DNA of 31,276 bases from a virus. The position numbers and the translations under genes are program-made. The stretch's first letter is position 1; the number at the start of each line of letters is the position of its first letter. The notes below the pieces were generated by a model, which worked only from the letters and a program-made list of their open reading frames with translations, did no database searches and had not been told where the DNA came from. Location: positions 1 to 31,276 of the IMG/VR virus record IMGVR_UViG_3300045141_000293. One strand, written 5' to 3'. Positions 4,633 to 18,361 of the stretch are shown here, one piece after another.

Positions 4633-4891
4633 GACTATCGATCAGCTTCTTGATGTCGGTCGGCGCACGCCGACCGGGTGACAGGTAGGGCGGCCTTATA
4701 GGGCCGCCCTTCGTGCGTTCGGCAGGCGCCGTCATGCGGCGTTGCAGATGCTCGTCGAGCATCTCGCGCGAGTAGCGTGGCCGGGCGCCCAGCGTCGAGC
4801 GCGGCAGGCGCAGGCGATCGAGCTGGCGGGTCGAGACCCGCAGGTACTGCGCCGCCTCGCGGCGCGTCATCCAATTAGGTTCGCTTGCCAT
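4592..4891 (-). CDS. Excisionase-like MerR/HTH_17 DNA-binding protein
   Basis: A 99-residue basic protein. The N-terminal winged-helix motif (MTRREAAQYLRVSTRQLDRL, about residues 8-27) is typical of HTH_17/excisionase proteins, followed by a Pro/Arg-rich C-terminus. Start ATG 4891 has GGAG seven bases upstream and overlaps the end of the preceding gene by 17 bases; an inner ATG at 4870 is an alternative. Position beside and convergent with int supports a recombination directionality factor that bends attP DNA to favour excision. Two strong hairpins lie inside the gene (4657-4676 and 4687-4710), about 25 and 55 bases past the int stop. They lack T-runs but may slow or end int transcription. 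Confidence 0.75.
   Translation of the reverse strand: MASEPNWMTRREAAQYLRVSTRQLDRLRLPRSTLGARPRYSREMLDEHLQRRMTAPAERTKGGPIRPPYLSPGRRAPTDIKKLIDSLRPPASTSGAPKR
4657..4710. other. Two stem-loops downstream of int, inside the excisionase gene
   Basis: Arms CGGTCGGCG/CGCCGACCG around CA (4657-4676), and AGGGCGGCC/GGCCGCCCT around a six-base loop (4687-4710). Both are perfect. No U-tract follows, so a canonical intrinsic terminator is not shown. Confidence 0.55.
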
Positions 4892-5198
4892 GGAGGATCT
4901 CCGAGACGCGGCCGACGTCGATGTTGAGACGATAGGCGATCTCTTTCTGTGCCAGGGTCGGGTGTGCCGCACGCAGTGCCCACACCTCGGCCCGCTTGGC
5001 GGCCGTGATGGCATCAGCCGTCACGCGCCCGCGCTGCAGCGGTGGCCGGTTGGCCATCTGGCCGCGCAGCTCGCCGAGGACCGGCACCATCTGCTCGACG
5101 AAGCGCCACTGCCGGCTCTCGAGTGCATACTCGAGGATCTTGATGGCCTGGTCGAGCTGCGCGCGCTGCTTGGCCTTGGTGCTGGGTATTTCGAGCAT
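4875..5198 (-). CDS. Small protein with C-terminal helix-turn-helix
   Basis: Starts at ATG 5198 (MLEIPSTKAKQRAQ), with GAGGGG six bases upstream; the frame runs further upstream only through the low-complexity pentamer array. The 107-residue product has an N-terminal helical part (about 8-50) and a C-terminal HTH (TLAQKEIAYRLNIDVGRVSE, about 82-101) resembling Trp-repressor or sigma-like HTHs. It overlaps the excisionase start and is the second-last gene of the leftward operon, so it may regulate excision or early transcription. No family name is claimed. Confidence 0.75.
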   Translation of the reverse strand: MLEIPSTKAKQRAQLDQAIKILEYALESRQWRFVEQMVPVLGELRGQMANRPPLQRGRVTADAITAAKRAEVWALRAAHPTLAQKEIAYRLNIDVGRVSEILHGKRT

Positions 5199-5215
5199 GC
5201 CGTTCCCCTCAGATA

Positions 5216-5470
5216 AAACCTCGCCTCGCCCTGCCATAGCCAGCCCCACCACAACGCACCCGACCTTACCCCGCCATGGCCGGCCACGCCCAACCACCGC
5301 CCTGCCTAACCTCGCCTCGCCCAACCTTGCCACGCCTTGCCATGCCCGACCCCGCCGCACCGCGCCATGGCTCGGCTCGCCTAGCCAAACCTTGCCGAGC
5401 CCGACCGAGACATGCCGGACCACGCCTTGCCCCGCCACGCCCTGCCACGCCAGGCCACGCCACGCCAAGA
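5216..5470 (-). repeat. Pentamer array A1 (sense-strand NGGYN)
   Basis: Roughly 50 five-base units in near-constant phase, read on the minus strand as N-G-G-pyrimidine-N with few exceptions. It fills the gap between the 217-aa gene and the HTH gene of the leftward operon. All overlapping open frames here translate into Arg/Gly/Ala-rich repeats (RRGKAR-like) and are not genes. Confidence 0.85.
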
Positions 5471-5485
5471 CCGTGCCACGAGCAA

Positions 5486-6139
5486 TCAGGAAAGGTTTAC
5501 AACCTTAAAGTGCGAAATTCCGTACCTCCCGTATGTTGGTCTGTTATCGCCAACCCCAACCAACTGCCCTGCGCGTGTCGCGACCTGATGCAGAAAGTCG
5601 GCCGAAATGTACTCGGCCACCGTGATCAAAAGGACAGCTTGGATACGCCATCCGACATTGAACGCAGGCCGGTGCCGGGTGATGCCGTTGCGCTGAACCA
5701 TCACCCGGCGACGATCGACGTAGTGCCATTCGGTGGTGGCTTCAGGGCACAGGATGGGAGCCAGCGGGGTCAGGCAGACTACGCCCGCCTTGAACAGGTC
5801 CATGGCGCTCTTGCGCGGACTGCGCGGGTCTTGCTGAAACTTCGCCGCATGGATGATCGACTGCCGCAAATACTCGCCGGGAAGGCAGATCTGCTGTTCG
5901 TCGTTGCGGTAGACATAGCTTTCGAGATCGTCCGACTTCTTGGCCTTCGATCCCTTTGCCGCCTTTGACTTTTCCTCGACACCGTCGACCGACCAGCGAT
6001 GACAGATCAGGTCGGCGTGGCCGATGATGCCAACCTCGACGTGAAAGGGCGCCGCCCATTCAAGCTGGACTTTTGCATCATTCGTTGGCGGCGAGCCGAG
6101 CCCGCGTACTTTGCCGTTGGTATCTGTTCTCGTTTGCAT
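5486..6139 (-). CDS. Conserved phage protein of the recombination cluster, possible RAMP-like fold
   Basis: Start chosen at ATG 6139 (MQTRTDTNGKV), five bases after AGGAGG; a second ATG directly before it is too close to the SD. The 217-residue protein has a Lys/Ala-rich linker (about 57-69), a motif LPGEYLRQSIIHAAKF, then QDPRSPRKSAMDLFKAG, and near the C-terminus a Gly-rich stretch LVGVGDNRPTYGRYGI. I recall close relatives as unnamed proteins in phage clusters with SSB, NinB and Cas4-like nuclease. The C-terminal Gly-rich element recalls the G-loop of RAMP/Cas7-type ferredoxin folds, but this is a hypothesis from motif shape only. It sits between the two largest pentamer arrays, so a nucleic-acid-binding role is plausible. 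Confidence 0.75.
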   Translation of the reverse strand: MQTRTDTNGKVRGLGSPPTNDAKVQLEWAAPFHVEVGIIGHADLICHRWSVDGVEEKSKAAKGSKAKKSDDLESYVYRNDEQQICLPGEYLRQSIIHAAKFQQDPRSPRKSAMDLFKAGVVCLTPLAPILCPEATTEWHYVDRRRVMVQRNGITRHRPAFNVGWRIQAVLLITVAEYISADFLHQVATRAGQLVGVGDNRPTYGRYGISHFKVVNLS

Positions 6140-6164
6140 CATTTCCTCCTGGTTAAAAAGAACC

Positions 6165-6720
6165 TCGCCACGCCATACCCCGCCATGCCTGACCGAGCCG
6201 GACCCGACCACGCCATGGCCTACCCGACCGCGCCATGCCGGAGCGCACCGGACCCTGCCACGCCATGCCTTGCCCCGCCTTGCCGTGCCCCGCCGTGCCA
6301 GGCCAGACCACACCTCACCGGACCCGACCGCGCCTCACCGGGCCTCGCCTGACCACACCACGCCCAACCTGGCCGTGCCTTGCCCTGCCGTGCCGGAATA
6401 GACCGGACCTGACCGCGCCTCGCCTCACCACGCCCAGCCACGCCCAGCCATGCCTTGCCATGCCTTGCCACACCGAACCAAACCTTGCCCTGCCAGGCCA
6501 TGCCGCGCCGAGCCTTGCCAAGCCGCACCGCGCCATGCCCGGCCTTGCCTCGCCATGCCTTCGCCTTGCCCTGCCCCGGCTCACCGATCCGCGCCCGGCC
6601 CAGCCTAGCCGGACCAGGCCAAGCCGTGCCTCGCCGCGCCTCACCTCGCCATGCCTACGCCCGGCCAAGCCTCGCCCGACCAAGCCTAGCCCGACCTGGC
6701 CGTGCCCTGCCTTGCCCCAT
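6165..6720 (-). repeat. Pentamer array A2, the largest (about 110 units)
   Basis: About 555 bases built from a five-base unit, sense-strand consensus NGGYN. The phase holds from about 6170 to 6540, slips by one base near 6560 and then holds again to 6715. It separates the ninB-like stop from the start of the 217-aa gene and would be transcribed as a long leader. Six-frame reading gives several long open frames of Arg/Gly or Pro/Ala repeats; none has a ribosome binding site and they were left out. Confidence 0.9.
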
Positions 6721-6721
6721 C

Positions 6722-7117
6722 TCATTCGACCTCGATGCCGTGTTCCACCGCCCAGGCGGTGGCGAAGTCGATCAGCTCGCTCATCTCCGAAATCCCCATG
6801 TCGCGGGTGCCCATGAGCAGCGACACCCGGCCGGCGCCGTTCAGTCCCTCGACCAGGCGTGGCTCCTTGCCGGTGGCCAGCATCCAGCCGTGCAGCAACA
6901 GGTCGTGCCACGCGCGTTTGCTTTGCCGTTCGCCGTCCCAGGTCAGCGTCGACTGGGCGAGCTGAGAGCACAGCGCGTAGAATTTCGCCGACTGGTCGAG
7001 GGTCCGGGGCGGCGGGCTGATCGTGACCAGCCAGCCGCTCGGTGCCTGGCGCACATGCTCGCAGGCAAGCTGGCGCGTGTTCAGCCCGTGCAGGCGGATG
7101 GCGATGCCGTCGGTCAC
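6722..7117 (-). CDS. NinB/Orf-family recombination protein
   Basis: A 131-residue protein similar in length and motif to lambda Orf/NinB, a mediator that helps load phage recombination proteins on SSB-coated single strands. The recognisable block is LDQSAKFYALCSQLA (about 40-54), SKRAWHDLLLHGWMLATG (about 66-83) and LLMGTRDMGISEMSELIDF (about 100-118), as in the family. The start is a GTG at 7117 that shares bases with the TGA of the SSB-like gene (GTGA overlap), so translation is coupled. Partners in the operon are an SSB-like protein and a PD-(D/E)XK nuclease, which is a coherent recombination module. The stop abuts pentamer array A2. Confidence 0.85.
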   Translation of the reverse strand: MTDGIAIRLHGLNTRQLACEHVRQAPSGWLVTISPPPRTLDQSAKFYALCSQLAQSTLTWDGERQSKRAWHDLLLHGWMLATGKEPRLVEGLNGAGRVSLLMGTRDMGISEMSELIDFATAWAVEHGIEVE

Positions 7118-7677: not shown

Positions 7678-7695
7678 CTTTGCCTCCATAGAAAT

Positions 7696-7795
7696 TGCCA
7701 TGCCTTGCCGTACCTCGCCATGCCACGCCCGGCCTCGCCCAGCCCCGCCCGGCCTCGCCCAGCCCCGCCTCACCACGCCGCGTCATGCCGCGCCG
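7696..7795 (-). repeat. Pentamer array A3 with a tandem 20-base duplication
   Basis: About 20 NGGYN units on the minus strand between the nuclease stop and the SSB-like start; the phase continues into the last codons of the nuclease gene. Bases 7726-7745 are repeated exactly at 7746-7765 (four pentamers), which suggests growth by slippage or unequal exchange in whole units. Confidence 0.85.
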
Positions 7796-8562
7796 GAATT
7801 ACGCGGAAGGACTGCCACCCTCTTTGCTTGCTTCACCGCCTCAATCATCGAGGGCCGCCAATAAAAACTTTCGTAGTTTGGTGAAAAACACGACAGCGCA
7901 TCGATGCCGTTATCGACGCGGCTTAAAAAGCTTTTGAGTGCGAGAGCACCCTCGATCACCCTGTCGTAGGCCTCACCGGTGGCCTGTTGGACGATCTCGA
8001 AACGCGTCCATTTTTTCGGTGACGTGTAAACGAGATCGAACGGCACGCCGAAGAACATCGAGTAGCAGCTCACCTGCTCGACATGCGCCGGGTCAGGCGA
8101 TGACGGGATGCGCCAGGTCGTCTTGAGATCGGTGCCTCGATCGGGCCAGATCCAATCTGAGTAGCCTATTAAGGGCACCGAGATACCCGGCAAGGTCAGC
8201 TCGATCTTCGCCTGGCGCTGCAGTGGCACCGGCATGCCGTCGAAGGCGGTGCGGGCCTGGACCAGGAAGTCGAGCAGCGCGTCGTATTCCTTGACGGCGT
8301 CAGGATCGACGATGCCCTGGGCCTGCTCGTCCCATTTGTTCTGCATCGCCTCGAGCGCCGCGCCACCGTCGAGGCCGAAGAGCAGCCGATCGACACCGGC
8401 CTCGACCGCCTGGCCACGCCAGGCGCCAGGTCCGGCCTCGTCGGGGGCCTTGAGGAGGTACTTGCCAATCCACACGGCCGGCGCGTCGCGGAACAGGCGC
8501 AAGCTCGACGGGCTGAGATGATCTATTCCATGTTTTTCAAAAGGATCGTTTCCTGTGGTCAT
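7783..8562 (-). CDS. PD-(D/E)XK exonuclease, RecB/Cas4-like
   Basis: A 259-residue protein starting at ATG 8562. The N-terminal SPSSLRLFRDAPAVWIGKY is the usual entry helix of Cas4/RecB-like phage nucleases. The catalytic core is visible as GYSDW (D136), D145-L-K147-T and a downstream Gln motif (HVEQVSCYSMF, about 162-172). The enzyme would resect DNA ends for recombination with the NinB-like and SSB-like partners. It lies second in the leftward operon, overlapping the upstream 65-aa gene by 26 bases, with AGGGGA before the start. The last residues (NSGAA) are encoded by the beginning of pentamer array A3. No Fe-S cysteine cluster typical of Cas4 is evident. Confidence 0.85.
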   Translation of the reverse strand: MTTGNDPFEKHGIDHLSPSSLRLFRDAPAVWIGKYLLKAPDEAGPGAWRGQAVEAGVDRLLFGLDGGAALEAMQNKWDEQAQGIVDPDAVKEYDALLDFLVQARTAFDGMPVPLQRQAKIELTLPGISVPLIGYSDWIWPDRGTDLKTTWRIPSSPDPAHVEQVSCYSMFFGVPFDLVYTSPKKWTRFEIVQQATGEAYDRVIEGALALKSFLSRVDNGIDALSCFSPNYESFYWRPSMIEAVKQAKRVAVLPRNSGAA

Positions 8563-12721: not shown

Positions 12722-13024
12722 ATGCCCCGTCGATGCCTGCTCACGATGACGCCGCTGGCCGACGCCTTCGCCCGGGCGAAGGCGAGCGTGGATGACGTGC
12801 TGCATGCGGCGATCGACGAGATCGACAGCTTCTGCCCGGCCGACGAGCAGCCCAATGGGCTGTTCACGTTCACGACGGGTGGCCAGCTGTACATCGGCAA
12901 GTGCAACGGCGACGGCAACGTGCTGATCGACACTGCGACCTATGAGGAAGGCCCGCTCATGACAGCGGGCCCGTTCAAGGGCAAGCGCCTGGTGCTGCCG
13001 AGGGGCGACAGCGAGGAGGATTAG
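12722..13024 (+). CDS. Hypothetical protein, 100 aa
   Basis: Start ATG 12722 (MPRRCLLTMTPL) with GGAGGA five bases upstream; the earlier ATG at 12707 lies before this SD. The acidic protein has an N-terminal helix (about 14-40) and a beta-rich part with Gly/Asn turns, ending in an acidic EED tail. No family recognised. It is the last gene directly behind the helicase. A perfect 22-bp palindrome (CGCCTTCGCCC and its complement, 12763-12784) lies near the start. The TAG stop is the first part of pentamer array A4. Confidence 0.7.
   Translation: MPRRCLLTMTPLADAFARAKASVDDVLHAAIDEIDSFCPADEQPNGLFTFTTGGQLYIGKCNGDGNVLIDTATYEEGPLMTAGPFKGKRLVLPRGDSEED
12763..12784. other. Perfect 22-bp palindrome in coding sequence
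   Basis: Half-site CGCCTTCGCCC followed directly by its reverse complement. Its core resembles the helicase hairpin at 12186-12209. Confidence 0.6.
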
Positions 13025-13062
13025 GCAGGGCGCGGTGGGGTGTGGTTTGGTATGGTGAGGCG
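13023..13062 (+). repeat. Pentamer array A4 (eight units, NGGYN)
   Basis: Eight consecutive five-base units in perfect phase (aggca, gggcg, cggtg, gggtg, tggtt, tggta, tggtg, aggcg), beginning inside the stop codon of the 100-aa gene and running into hairpin H1. The G-rich strand is the plus strand, matching the rightward genes here. Confidence 0.8.
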
Positions 13063-13081
13063 TCGCTAGGTTACTAGCGAC
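13062..13081 (+). repeat. Hairpin H1 (GTCGCTAG GTTA CTAGCGAC)
   Basis: Perfect 8-bp stem and GTTA loop, directly after pentamer array A4 and 25 bases before the start of the 59-aa gene. Confidence 0.8.
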
Positions 13082-17769: not shown

Positions 17770-17844
17770 CGGTGCGTCGGGGCATGGCTGGGCATGGTGA
17801 GGTCAGGTTCGGCCTGGCCAGTTCTGGCACGGTAAGGCATGGCG
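17770..17844 (+). repeat. Pentamer array A5 (about 15 units, NGGYN)
   Basis: Fifteen in-phase units with two imperfect ones, the G-rich strand being plus, just upstream of the terminase small subunit gene on the plus strand. It would lie in its 5' leader. Confidence 0.8.
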
Positions 17845-17878
17845 CGCCTTTCAAGGCGCAGTCACCCGGAGTAGCGTT

Positions 17879-18361
17879 ATGGGTGAAAGACATCGACAAG
17901 CCGCACTCTCACGCCGGCAGGTCAAATTCGTCGAGGAATTCGCCCATCTGCCCAACGCTACAGGGGCAGCGAGAGCTGCTGGATATACAGACGGACCAGG
18001 CCTTAAGGTCACCGCCAGCAGGCTGCTAACCAAGGCTAACGTAAAAGCTGCGATCGCCAAGGCCGAGGCTGAGATCGTGGAGGAAATCACGCCTAATCGG
18101 GTCAAGCGTCGGCTACACGAAATCTCCCACGCTTCTCAAGAGGCCGGTCAGTTCGGGCCCGCAGTACGATCTGAAGAGCTGCTTGGGAAGAGCCTTGGTA
18201 TGTGGGTCGATGCGTCGATCTCGCTGACCGGCACCATGAGCGACAGCCACATCGCTGCGCTGCTCGAACTGGCGCGCAAGCGGCAGCAGGAGCCGATCGA
18301 CCTGCTCGATGACCAGAACCCACGCAGCAACTCCTCACAGAGCGAGAACGAGGACCGTTAG
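17879..18361 (+). CDS. terS: Terminase small subunit (Terminase_2-like)
   Basis: A 160-residue protein starting at ATG 17879 with GGAG nine bases upstream. The N-terminus matches the terminase_2 small subunit pattern: LSRRQVKFVEEFAHLPNATG, then AARAAGYTDGPGLKVTASRL and LLTKANVKAAI (about 10-60), an HTH that recognises the packaging site. A middle helical oligomerisation part and an acidic Ser/Asn-rich tail follow. It precedes the large subunit. The leader carries pentamer array A5. A hairpin with 10-bp arms (CGTTAGATGC) spans its stop codon. Confidence 0.85.
   Translation: MGERHRQAALSRRQVKFVEEFAHLPNATGAARAAGYTDGPGLKVTASRLLTKANVKAAIAKAEAEIVEEITPNRVKRRLHEISHASQEAGQFGPAVRSEELLGKSLGMWVDASISLTGTMSDSHIAALLELARKRQQEPIDLLDDQNPRSNSSQSENEDR

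Follow-up and report, generated by a model that had tools for sequence, protein, structure and literature searches.

The window, by which we mean the entire stretch of DNA analysed, covers the whole of a 31,276-base virus record. Genes for an integrase, a repressor, NinB, a terminase, a portal and a major head protein were present in it, which points to a tailed, temperate phage or a portion of such a phage. An open reading frame on the minus strand (6139 to 5486) encodes 217 amino acids plus the stop codon, and lies between the two largest arrays of GGYNN pentamers, A1 and A2, both on the same strand as the gene. We refer to this gene as vipr, after VIPR (Viral Interference Programmable Repeat), a system reported in a 2026 preprint that consists of a RAMP protein and guide RNAs (vrRNAs) made of GGY/NN pentamers (PMC13142463). 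The features of the locus were as follows.

4875..5201, minus strand: 108-aa HTH-like ORF after A1 (phrog_23243, of unknown function, E 7e-9; weak HTH matches)
5216..5466, minus strand: array A1, downstream of vipr and leader of the HTH-like ORF (34 + 16 GGYNN units)
5486..6139, minus strand: vipr, 217-aa single-domain RAMP homolog (SUSP1 Vipr profile match and AlphaFold model)
6160..6716, minus strand: array A2, vipr leader, with several putative guides (12 + 19 + 80 GGYNN units)
6722..7117, minus strand: NinB/Orf recombination mediator, upstream of A2 (PF05772, E 6.6e-23; phrog_72)
7695..7794, minus strand: array A3, with two putative guides, units 1 to 8 and 9 to 16 (20 GGYNN units)
7783..8562, minus strand: the phage's own PD-(D/E)XK nuclease gene, directly 5' of A3 (Pfam PDDEXK_1, E 7e-4, under the curated cut-off)
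13024..13063, plus strand: orphan vrRNA candidate O1 (8 units; score 8, the highest among 200 Markov sequences being 6.0)
13062..13081, plus strand: 8-bp hairpin, putative 3' vrRNA tail of O1 (sequence and fold)
17781..17845, plus strand: orphan vrRNA candidate O2, just upstream of terS (13 units)
17844..17859, plus strand: hairpin, putative 3' vrRNA tail of O2 (sequence and fold)
17879..18361, plus strand: the phage's own terS, directly 3' of O2 (phrog_51, terminase small subunit, E 2.3e-16)

Pfam gave no match to the 217-aa protein at an E value of 1 or better, NCBIfam and PADLOC gave nothing, and PHROG assigned it to phrog_4652, function unknown. Among solved structures, a phmmer search with the single sequence returned one match, SUSP1 Vipr (36pp_D; E 1.3e-4), and a profile made from 52 homologs matched the same chain with an E value of 3.8e-22 over profile positions 30 to 202, nearly the full length. 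An AlphaFold model based on 50 sequences reached a pLDDT of 87.8 and a pTM of 0.80. When it was compared with known structures by Foldseek, the best 50 matches listed were all CRISPR effector chains (top E 6e-7), and VIA-align gave a Z score of 12.2 to a Cmr-beta chain (153 aligned residues, 3.0 Å), with Csm3 chains tied. The element LVGVGDNRPTYGRYGI is present near the C terminus, and in an alignment of 50 sequences G191, G195, D198, R200, P201, G204 and R205 were invariant in this glycine-rich stretch. The sequence-only reading of this DNA had likened the element to the G-loop of Cas7/RAMP proteins and had called for a ferredoxin/RRM fold related to Cas7; the conservation of the element and the Csm3/Cas7 matches of the model (Z of about 12) bore out both. 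Judged by sequence and predicted fold, the protein belongs to the RAMP type and has a Cas7-like G-loop; its sequence identifies it as a phage-carried relative of Vipr.

These results leave very little room for a single-strand-annealing-type recombination protein that happens to lie near low-complexity repeats. Such a role would suit a gene that adjoins those for NinB/Orf and a PD-(D/E)XK nuclease, and RecT, ERF, Sak4-like or DUF669 genes were found near 14 of 92 relatives with a small probe set. However, both the sequence and the fold match Vipr and the CRISPR RAMPs, and GGYNN arrays accompany vipr across relatives whose neighbour genes are unrelated. No SSAP fold appeared among the best 50 structure matches listed, although a list of this length does not by itself argue against one.

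The arrays themselves are far beyond chance, in agreement with the earlier description of the ORF as flanked by the two largest pentamer arrays: segment scores reached 72.5, whereas 200 first-order Markov sequences matched to the window in composition and length never exceeded 6.0. In the 181 units of the minus strand, G occupied position 1 in 99% and position 2 in 94%, position 3 was C or T in 99 to 100%, and positions 4 and 5 were nearly free. A2 ends about 20 bases ahead of the vipr ATG, just before an AGGAGG ribosome site, and is thus the leader of the vipr mRNA, as had been supposed. The register of A2 shifts at window positions 6656 and 6560 (minus strand), in both cases by one additional A, after which GGCATGGCGAGG follows each time; this possibly marks a guide boundary. 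A staggered tiling of NN words along the long arrays was considered and rejected: 7 repeated four-unit words were counted, against a mean of 2.26 and a maximum of 8 in 50 shuffles, so that tiling is unsupported beyond A3. The long arrays A1 to A3 lack a recurrent SUSP1-like 3' tail, and neither array ends nor orphans folded more stably than shuffled sequences (z of −0.71 for the whole O2 fragment and −0.41 for O1).

Each of the three arrays stops just short of the gene that follows, ahead of its ribosome-binding site or its start. Binding at these places could block translation, and a RAMP protein might in this way control its own and neighbouring genes through the leaders A2, A1 and A3, with no DNA targeting. 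We consider this autoregulation quite improbable, since two guide-like RNAs lie on the opposite strand 7 to 12 kb away, since the guides, read in codon register with one base skipped, agree with foreign genes and are mismatched to the alleles that the phage itself carries, and since homologous Vipr ribonucleoproteins bind DNA (PMC13142463). Given the match to VIPR, we take the arrays for guide RNAs and not for sites that an autoregulator would bind. Thus, of the earlier proposal that the protein uses the arrays as its RNA target, the association of arrays and protein stood, whereas the arrays are best read as guides to DNA. The suggestion of a new kind of regulatory system had to be given up, as this kind of system has already been described (PMC13142463).

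In VIPR, the NN dinucleotides of the guides pair with DNA, and in each unit one base of the target, usually the wobble base, is passed over; a vrRNA has 9 to 16 repeats and a structured 3' tail, and the characterised homolog represses transcription (PMC13142463). We regard it as highly probable that this is a phage-borne VIPR locus whose guides O2 and A3 are aimed at genes of relatives and lie beside the phage's own divergent copies of those genes. Direct support for it comes from the homology, the fold, the arrays, the target matches in codon register, the mismatch to self and the placement of the guides.

The clearest target was that of O2. Read with a one-base skip in codon register, its units 1 to 9 spell MWIDQSLQL of terminase small subunits, matching terS at 18 of 18 positions in one related locus (L100), at 17 in another (L148) and at 16 in L097, L102 and L105 (the same as L169). 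Lower values were obtained with L101 (15), L145 to L147 (14) and L099 and L149 (11), and seven more distant loci (L103, L104, L150 to L154) gave 10 to 12, which is noise. The phage's own terS, which reads MWVDASISL at this place, matched at only 12 of 18. None of 200 permuted O2 guides reached 18, and the O2 pattern with up to three mismatches was found in 5 of 13 records, against none for the reversed pattern. On these sequence matches, O2 would be a guide against the terS of related phages that spares the phage's own copy.

For A3, the candidate target is the PD-(D/E)XK gene of three close relatives (G004, G012 and G005), whose homologs are 64 to 71% identical. Units 1 to 8 matched MAAEGWDR of G012 at 15 of 16 positions, and units 9 to 16 matched GWDRLIET of G012 and AWDRVIET of G004 at 15 of 16 each, all in codon register; the two target sites overlap by four codons. 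Units 1 to 8 scored 12 of 16 in G004, and G005 gave 12 and 13 for the two guides. The phage's own gene matched in frame at 9 and 11 of 16. In the set of close relatives, 9 of 200 permutations of A3 reached a best score of 14, and 1 of 200 gave three hits of at least 13; taken alone, the A3 signal is therefore only moderately beyond chance. The nuclease encoded at 7783..8562 is weakly similar to phrog_1706, labelled CRISPR/Cas system associated (E 0.012), and a homolog in another relative (L221, 3200 to 3946) matches it at E 6e-5, giving a Cas4-like flavour next to a RAMP gene.

The early genes of G004, G012 and G005 follow the same order as in the window, with no arrays or vipr match in the stretches examined, and the VIPR module thus looks inserted between NinB and the excisionase gene.

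Two further sets of matches were discarded as chance because the skipped base fell off the wobble position: one of A3 in a TerL gene (L181, score 16; skipped base at codon position 1 or 2) and those of A2 in portal genes (L197, L207 and L212; score 15; wrong codon register). These wrong-register matches of 15 to 16 mark the noise level.

No target above noise was found for A2 in the DNA compared. The exact nine-unit patterns of the first blocks of A2 and A1 gave no match in all IMG/VR contigs, the 12-unit block of A2 gave none with up to three mismatches in 30 related records, and neither array matched NinB, vipr or HTH homologs at 13 or more. For O1, there was no match of at least 14 of 16 in 16 related loci and the window. 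A1 and A2, for which no target was found, make up most of the 181 minus-strand units, which counts against the VIPR reading, as do the missing recurrent tail and the unremarkable folds noted above.

IMG/VR contained 150 relatives of the 217-aa protein; a tblastn search based on the repressor yielded no relatives. GGYNN arrays were detected in 73 of the 90 relatives' loci L007 to L096 (all of these loci being counted) and the same detector found none in the other 17, a further point against the VIPR reading; all but four of the arrays listed were on the vipr strand. Applied to SUSP1 (50 kb), the detector found two arrays, both flanking vipr; since SUSP1 carries four vrRNAs (PMC13142463), it misses weak ones. 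No family of neighbour genes occurred in more than 5 of 93 records as a common accessory gene, except for one cluster whose ORFs run through the arrays. Apart from phage LESphi2, the DNA compared held no homolog of SUSP1 vap1. The HTH-like ORF at 4875..5201 is a possible candidate for an accessory (vap) gene.

Several features of individual relatives were also recorded. In L054 (3081 to 3641) and L059 (4443 to 5023), discrete guide RNAs of 11 to 19 units are separated by a nearly identical tail of about 54 nt, a classical multi-guide arrangement among relatives of the window's Vipr. A GC-rich hairpin of the GGGCCGCG..CGCGGCCC type is conserved between array and start codon, 20 to 60 nt before vipr, in the leaders of L007 to L009, L011 to L016, L019 and L021, and is perhaps the guide 3' tail of that subclade. 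In one subclade with a longer Vipr (231 to 234 aa), a GGYNN-like stretch of 11 units, with a score at the noise limit (6.0), lies inside the vipr coding sequence (L050, 2694 to 2748; L067, 644 to 698; L068, 3180 to 3234; L078, 5355 to 5409). The Vipr of phage DSL-LC04 (OR003939.1; L004, 5685 to 5853) is 55% identical and bears the annotation of an HTH regulator; arrays lie upstream of its gene, and this phage is a possible laboratory starting point.

The skip rule also emerged independently when 186 array segments were compared with related DNA. Matches of at least 15 numbered 46 at a skip of one base and 5, 8 and 4 at skips of 0, 2 and 3, respectively, most of the 46 coming from the single guide of L050. 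This ten-unit guide corresponds, in antisense, to the codons of the Vipr G-loop; in all IMG/VR, its exact pattern occurred 28 times, every time inside the vipr gene of another phage, and it matched its own vipr at 16 of 20. Similarly, an array after a PD-(D/E)XK gene (DUF3799) in L089 matched that gene in L129 and L138 at 20 of 20 and its own at 14; an array ahead of a helicase gene in L137 matched the helicase Walker A region in L120 and L130 (22 of 24 in L120, 18 in its own); and an array after vipr in L033 matched the vipr of L023 at 20 of 22 and its own at 17. For each of the 11 guide-target pairs listed, the guide's own adjacent gene scored below the foreign gene, which is partly expected because a single own gene was set against the top scorer among many foreign ones. 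No segment had a match of at least 15 in its own record.

The position of guides next to the kind of gene they match was assessed with those 176 of 193 distinct segments whose adjacent ORF had homologs in the DNA compared. In a wobble register, 10 of the 176 scored at least 13 against homologs of the adjacent gene; the two wobble registers gave 7 and 4 such segments, where permuted guides gave 0.38 and 0.25, and the other four registers gave 2, 0, 1 and 2, against about 0.4 to 0.6 each, one of these non-wobble matches being a wrong-frame double of L137. At scores of 17 or more, five segments matched homologs of the adjacent gene and none matched elsewhere, adjacent-gene homologs representing 2.2% of the DNA compared. 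Loci L003 (the window itself), L017 and L053 (contigs of L001 and L002) were left out before the scans, and L111 to L114 before the adjacency test. Duplicates were retained (L169 is the contig of L105, and several of L115 to L136 repeat contigs of L007 to L015), which inflates counts of hits and leaves the counts of segments with hits unchanged.

The DNA compared consisted of stretches around vipr and TerL genes and was therefore enriched for their neighbours, which favours the adjacency result; moreover, vipr was the only adjacent gene with homologs for 93 of the 176 segments. Below 17, outside matches exceeded adjacent ones (6 versus 5 segments at 16, 48 versus 9 at 14), as noise takes over. 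The guides might thus be aimed at rivals with their adjacency being a side effect of this sampling and no rule. We think this unlikely, given that the five segments scoring at least 17 all fell on adjacent homologs, 2.2% of the comparisons, that three of the five targets were not vipr (terS, PDDEXK/DUF3799 and helicase), and that permuted guides gave 0.63 segments against 10 to 11. In a swapped-gene control the region sets were not size-matched, so the adjacency rests on the permuted control and the whole-DNA count.

According to the VIPR reading, Vipr would bind pentamer-repeat RNAs transcribed and processed from A1 to A3 and from the dispersed O1 and O2. In the complex, the GGY bases would be held by the protein and the NN pairs would base-pair with DNA, one target base being skipped per unit. 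O2 would be aimed at the terS of relatives and A3 at their PD-(D/E)XK nuclease, the phage's own copies escaping because their sequences diverge at the guided codons. In a co-infecting or resident relative, DNA-bound Vipr would repress the transcription of genes needed for packaging, for recombination or for the relative's own VIPR, presumably to the benefit of its carrier in mixed infections. As O2 and A3 spell the genes of rivals and spare the own copies, the system looks like a weapon against rivals.

Guides appear to tend to adjoin the phage's own divergent copy of the attacked gene, which by analogy resembles the marker exclusion exerted by homing endonucleases. We tentatively extend this to a large Vipr clade, as a reading with somewhat less than an even chance of being right: in an RNA-guided marker exclusion, guides planted by a recoded allele of the phage's own would silence the rival allele, be it of terminase, nuclease, helicase or vipr itself. 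With guide and immune allele as neighbours, recombination with the attacked relatives would seldom separate the pair. If so, guide and immunity would be inherited as a single block on recombination, like a natural target-and-rescue gene drive, and, with NinB and a nuclease nearby, Vipr binding might even help the VIPR-bearing segment to replace the rival allele. Such a pattern would explain how a phage avoids attacking itself while recombining with the relatives that it attacks. The placement also suggests where new guides may originate, and offers a shortcut to VIPR targets, namely to inspect the gene next door. More generally, the results point to a further abundant VIPR clade with readable targets in the packaging and recombination genes of close relatives, in which vipr is also targeted, at its most conserved codons.

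Among known systems, the CRISPR Class 1 proteins Cas7 and Csm3 share with the 217-aa protein the RRM-type RAMP fold with a G-loop (Z of about 12). In contrast to them, the locus has no cas neighbours, eight regional proteins being an integrase, NinB, an HTH protein, the PD-(D/E)XK protein, a repressor and unknowns; Rfam gave no family at gathering score, CRISPR repeats included, and the protein is far nearer to Vipr in sequence. A similar way of working is found in the free-standing homing endonucleases of T4 (SegF, SegG and others), several of which adjoin the gene that they cut in T2 (PMC2988022). In both cases, an element beside a gene would attack a relative's version of it while its own phage is spared. 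The endonucleases, however, are DNA-cutting proteins, as opposed to an RNA guide with Vipr; the 217-aa protein has a RAMP fold, with no Pfam match to an endonuclease domain at an E value of 1 or below, and the resemblance is one of working, not of membership.

The closest relative is the SUSP1-type VIPR, with which the locus and its relatives share a phage-borne RAMP protein of the Vipr family, flanking GGY/NN arrays on its own strand, targets in other phages that are read with one base skipped at the wobble position, and, among the relatives, guides sometimes aimed at other vipr genes. Seven VIPR types, I to VII, have been set by phylogeny, vrRNA architecture and vap, and natural targets are given in the main text mainly for two clades (PMC13142463); no other VIPR paper was found in the literature collection searched. 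The locus described here differs from SUSP1 in its long arrays of up to 111 units with no recurrent tail, in candidate guides dispersed away from the vipr locus, and in having no vap1 homolog. A word search of the main text of PMC13142463 found no mention of neighbours or adjacency, and what is new here with respect to that text is the placement of guides next to the phage's own allele of the gene that they would attack.
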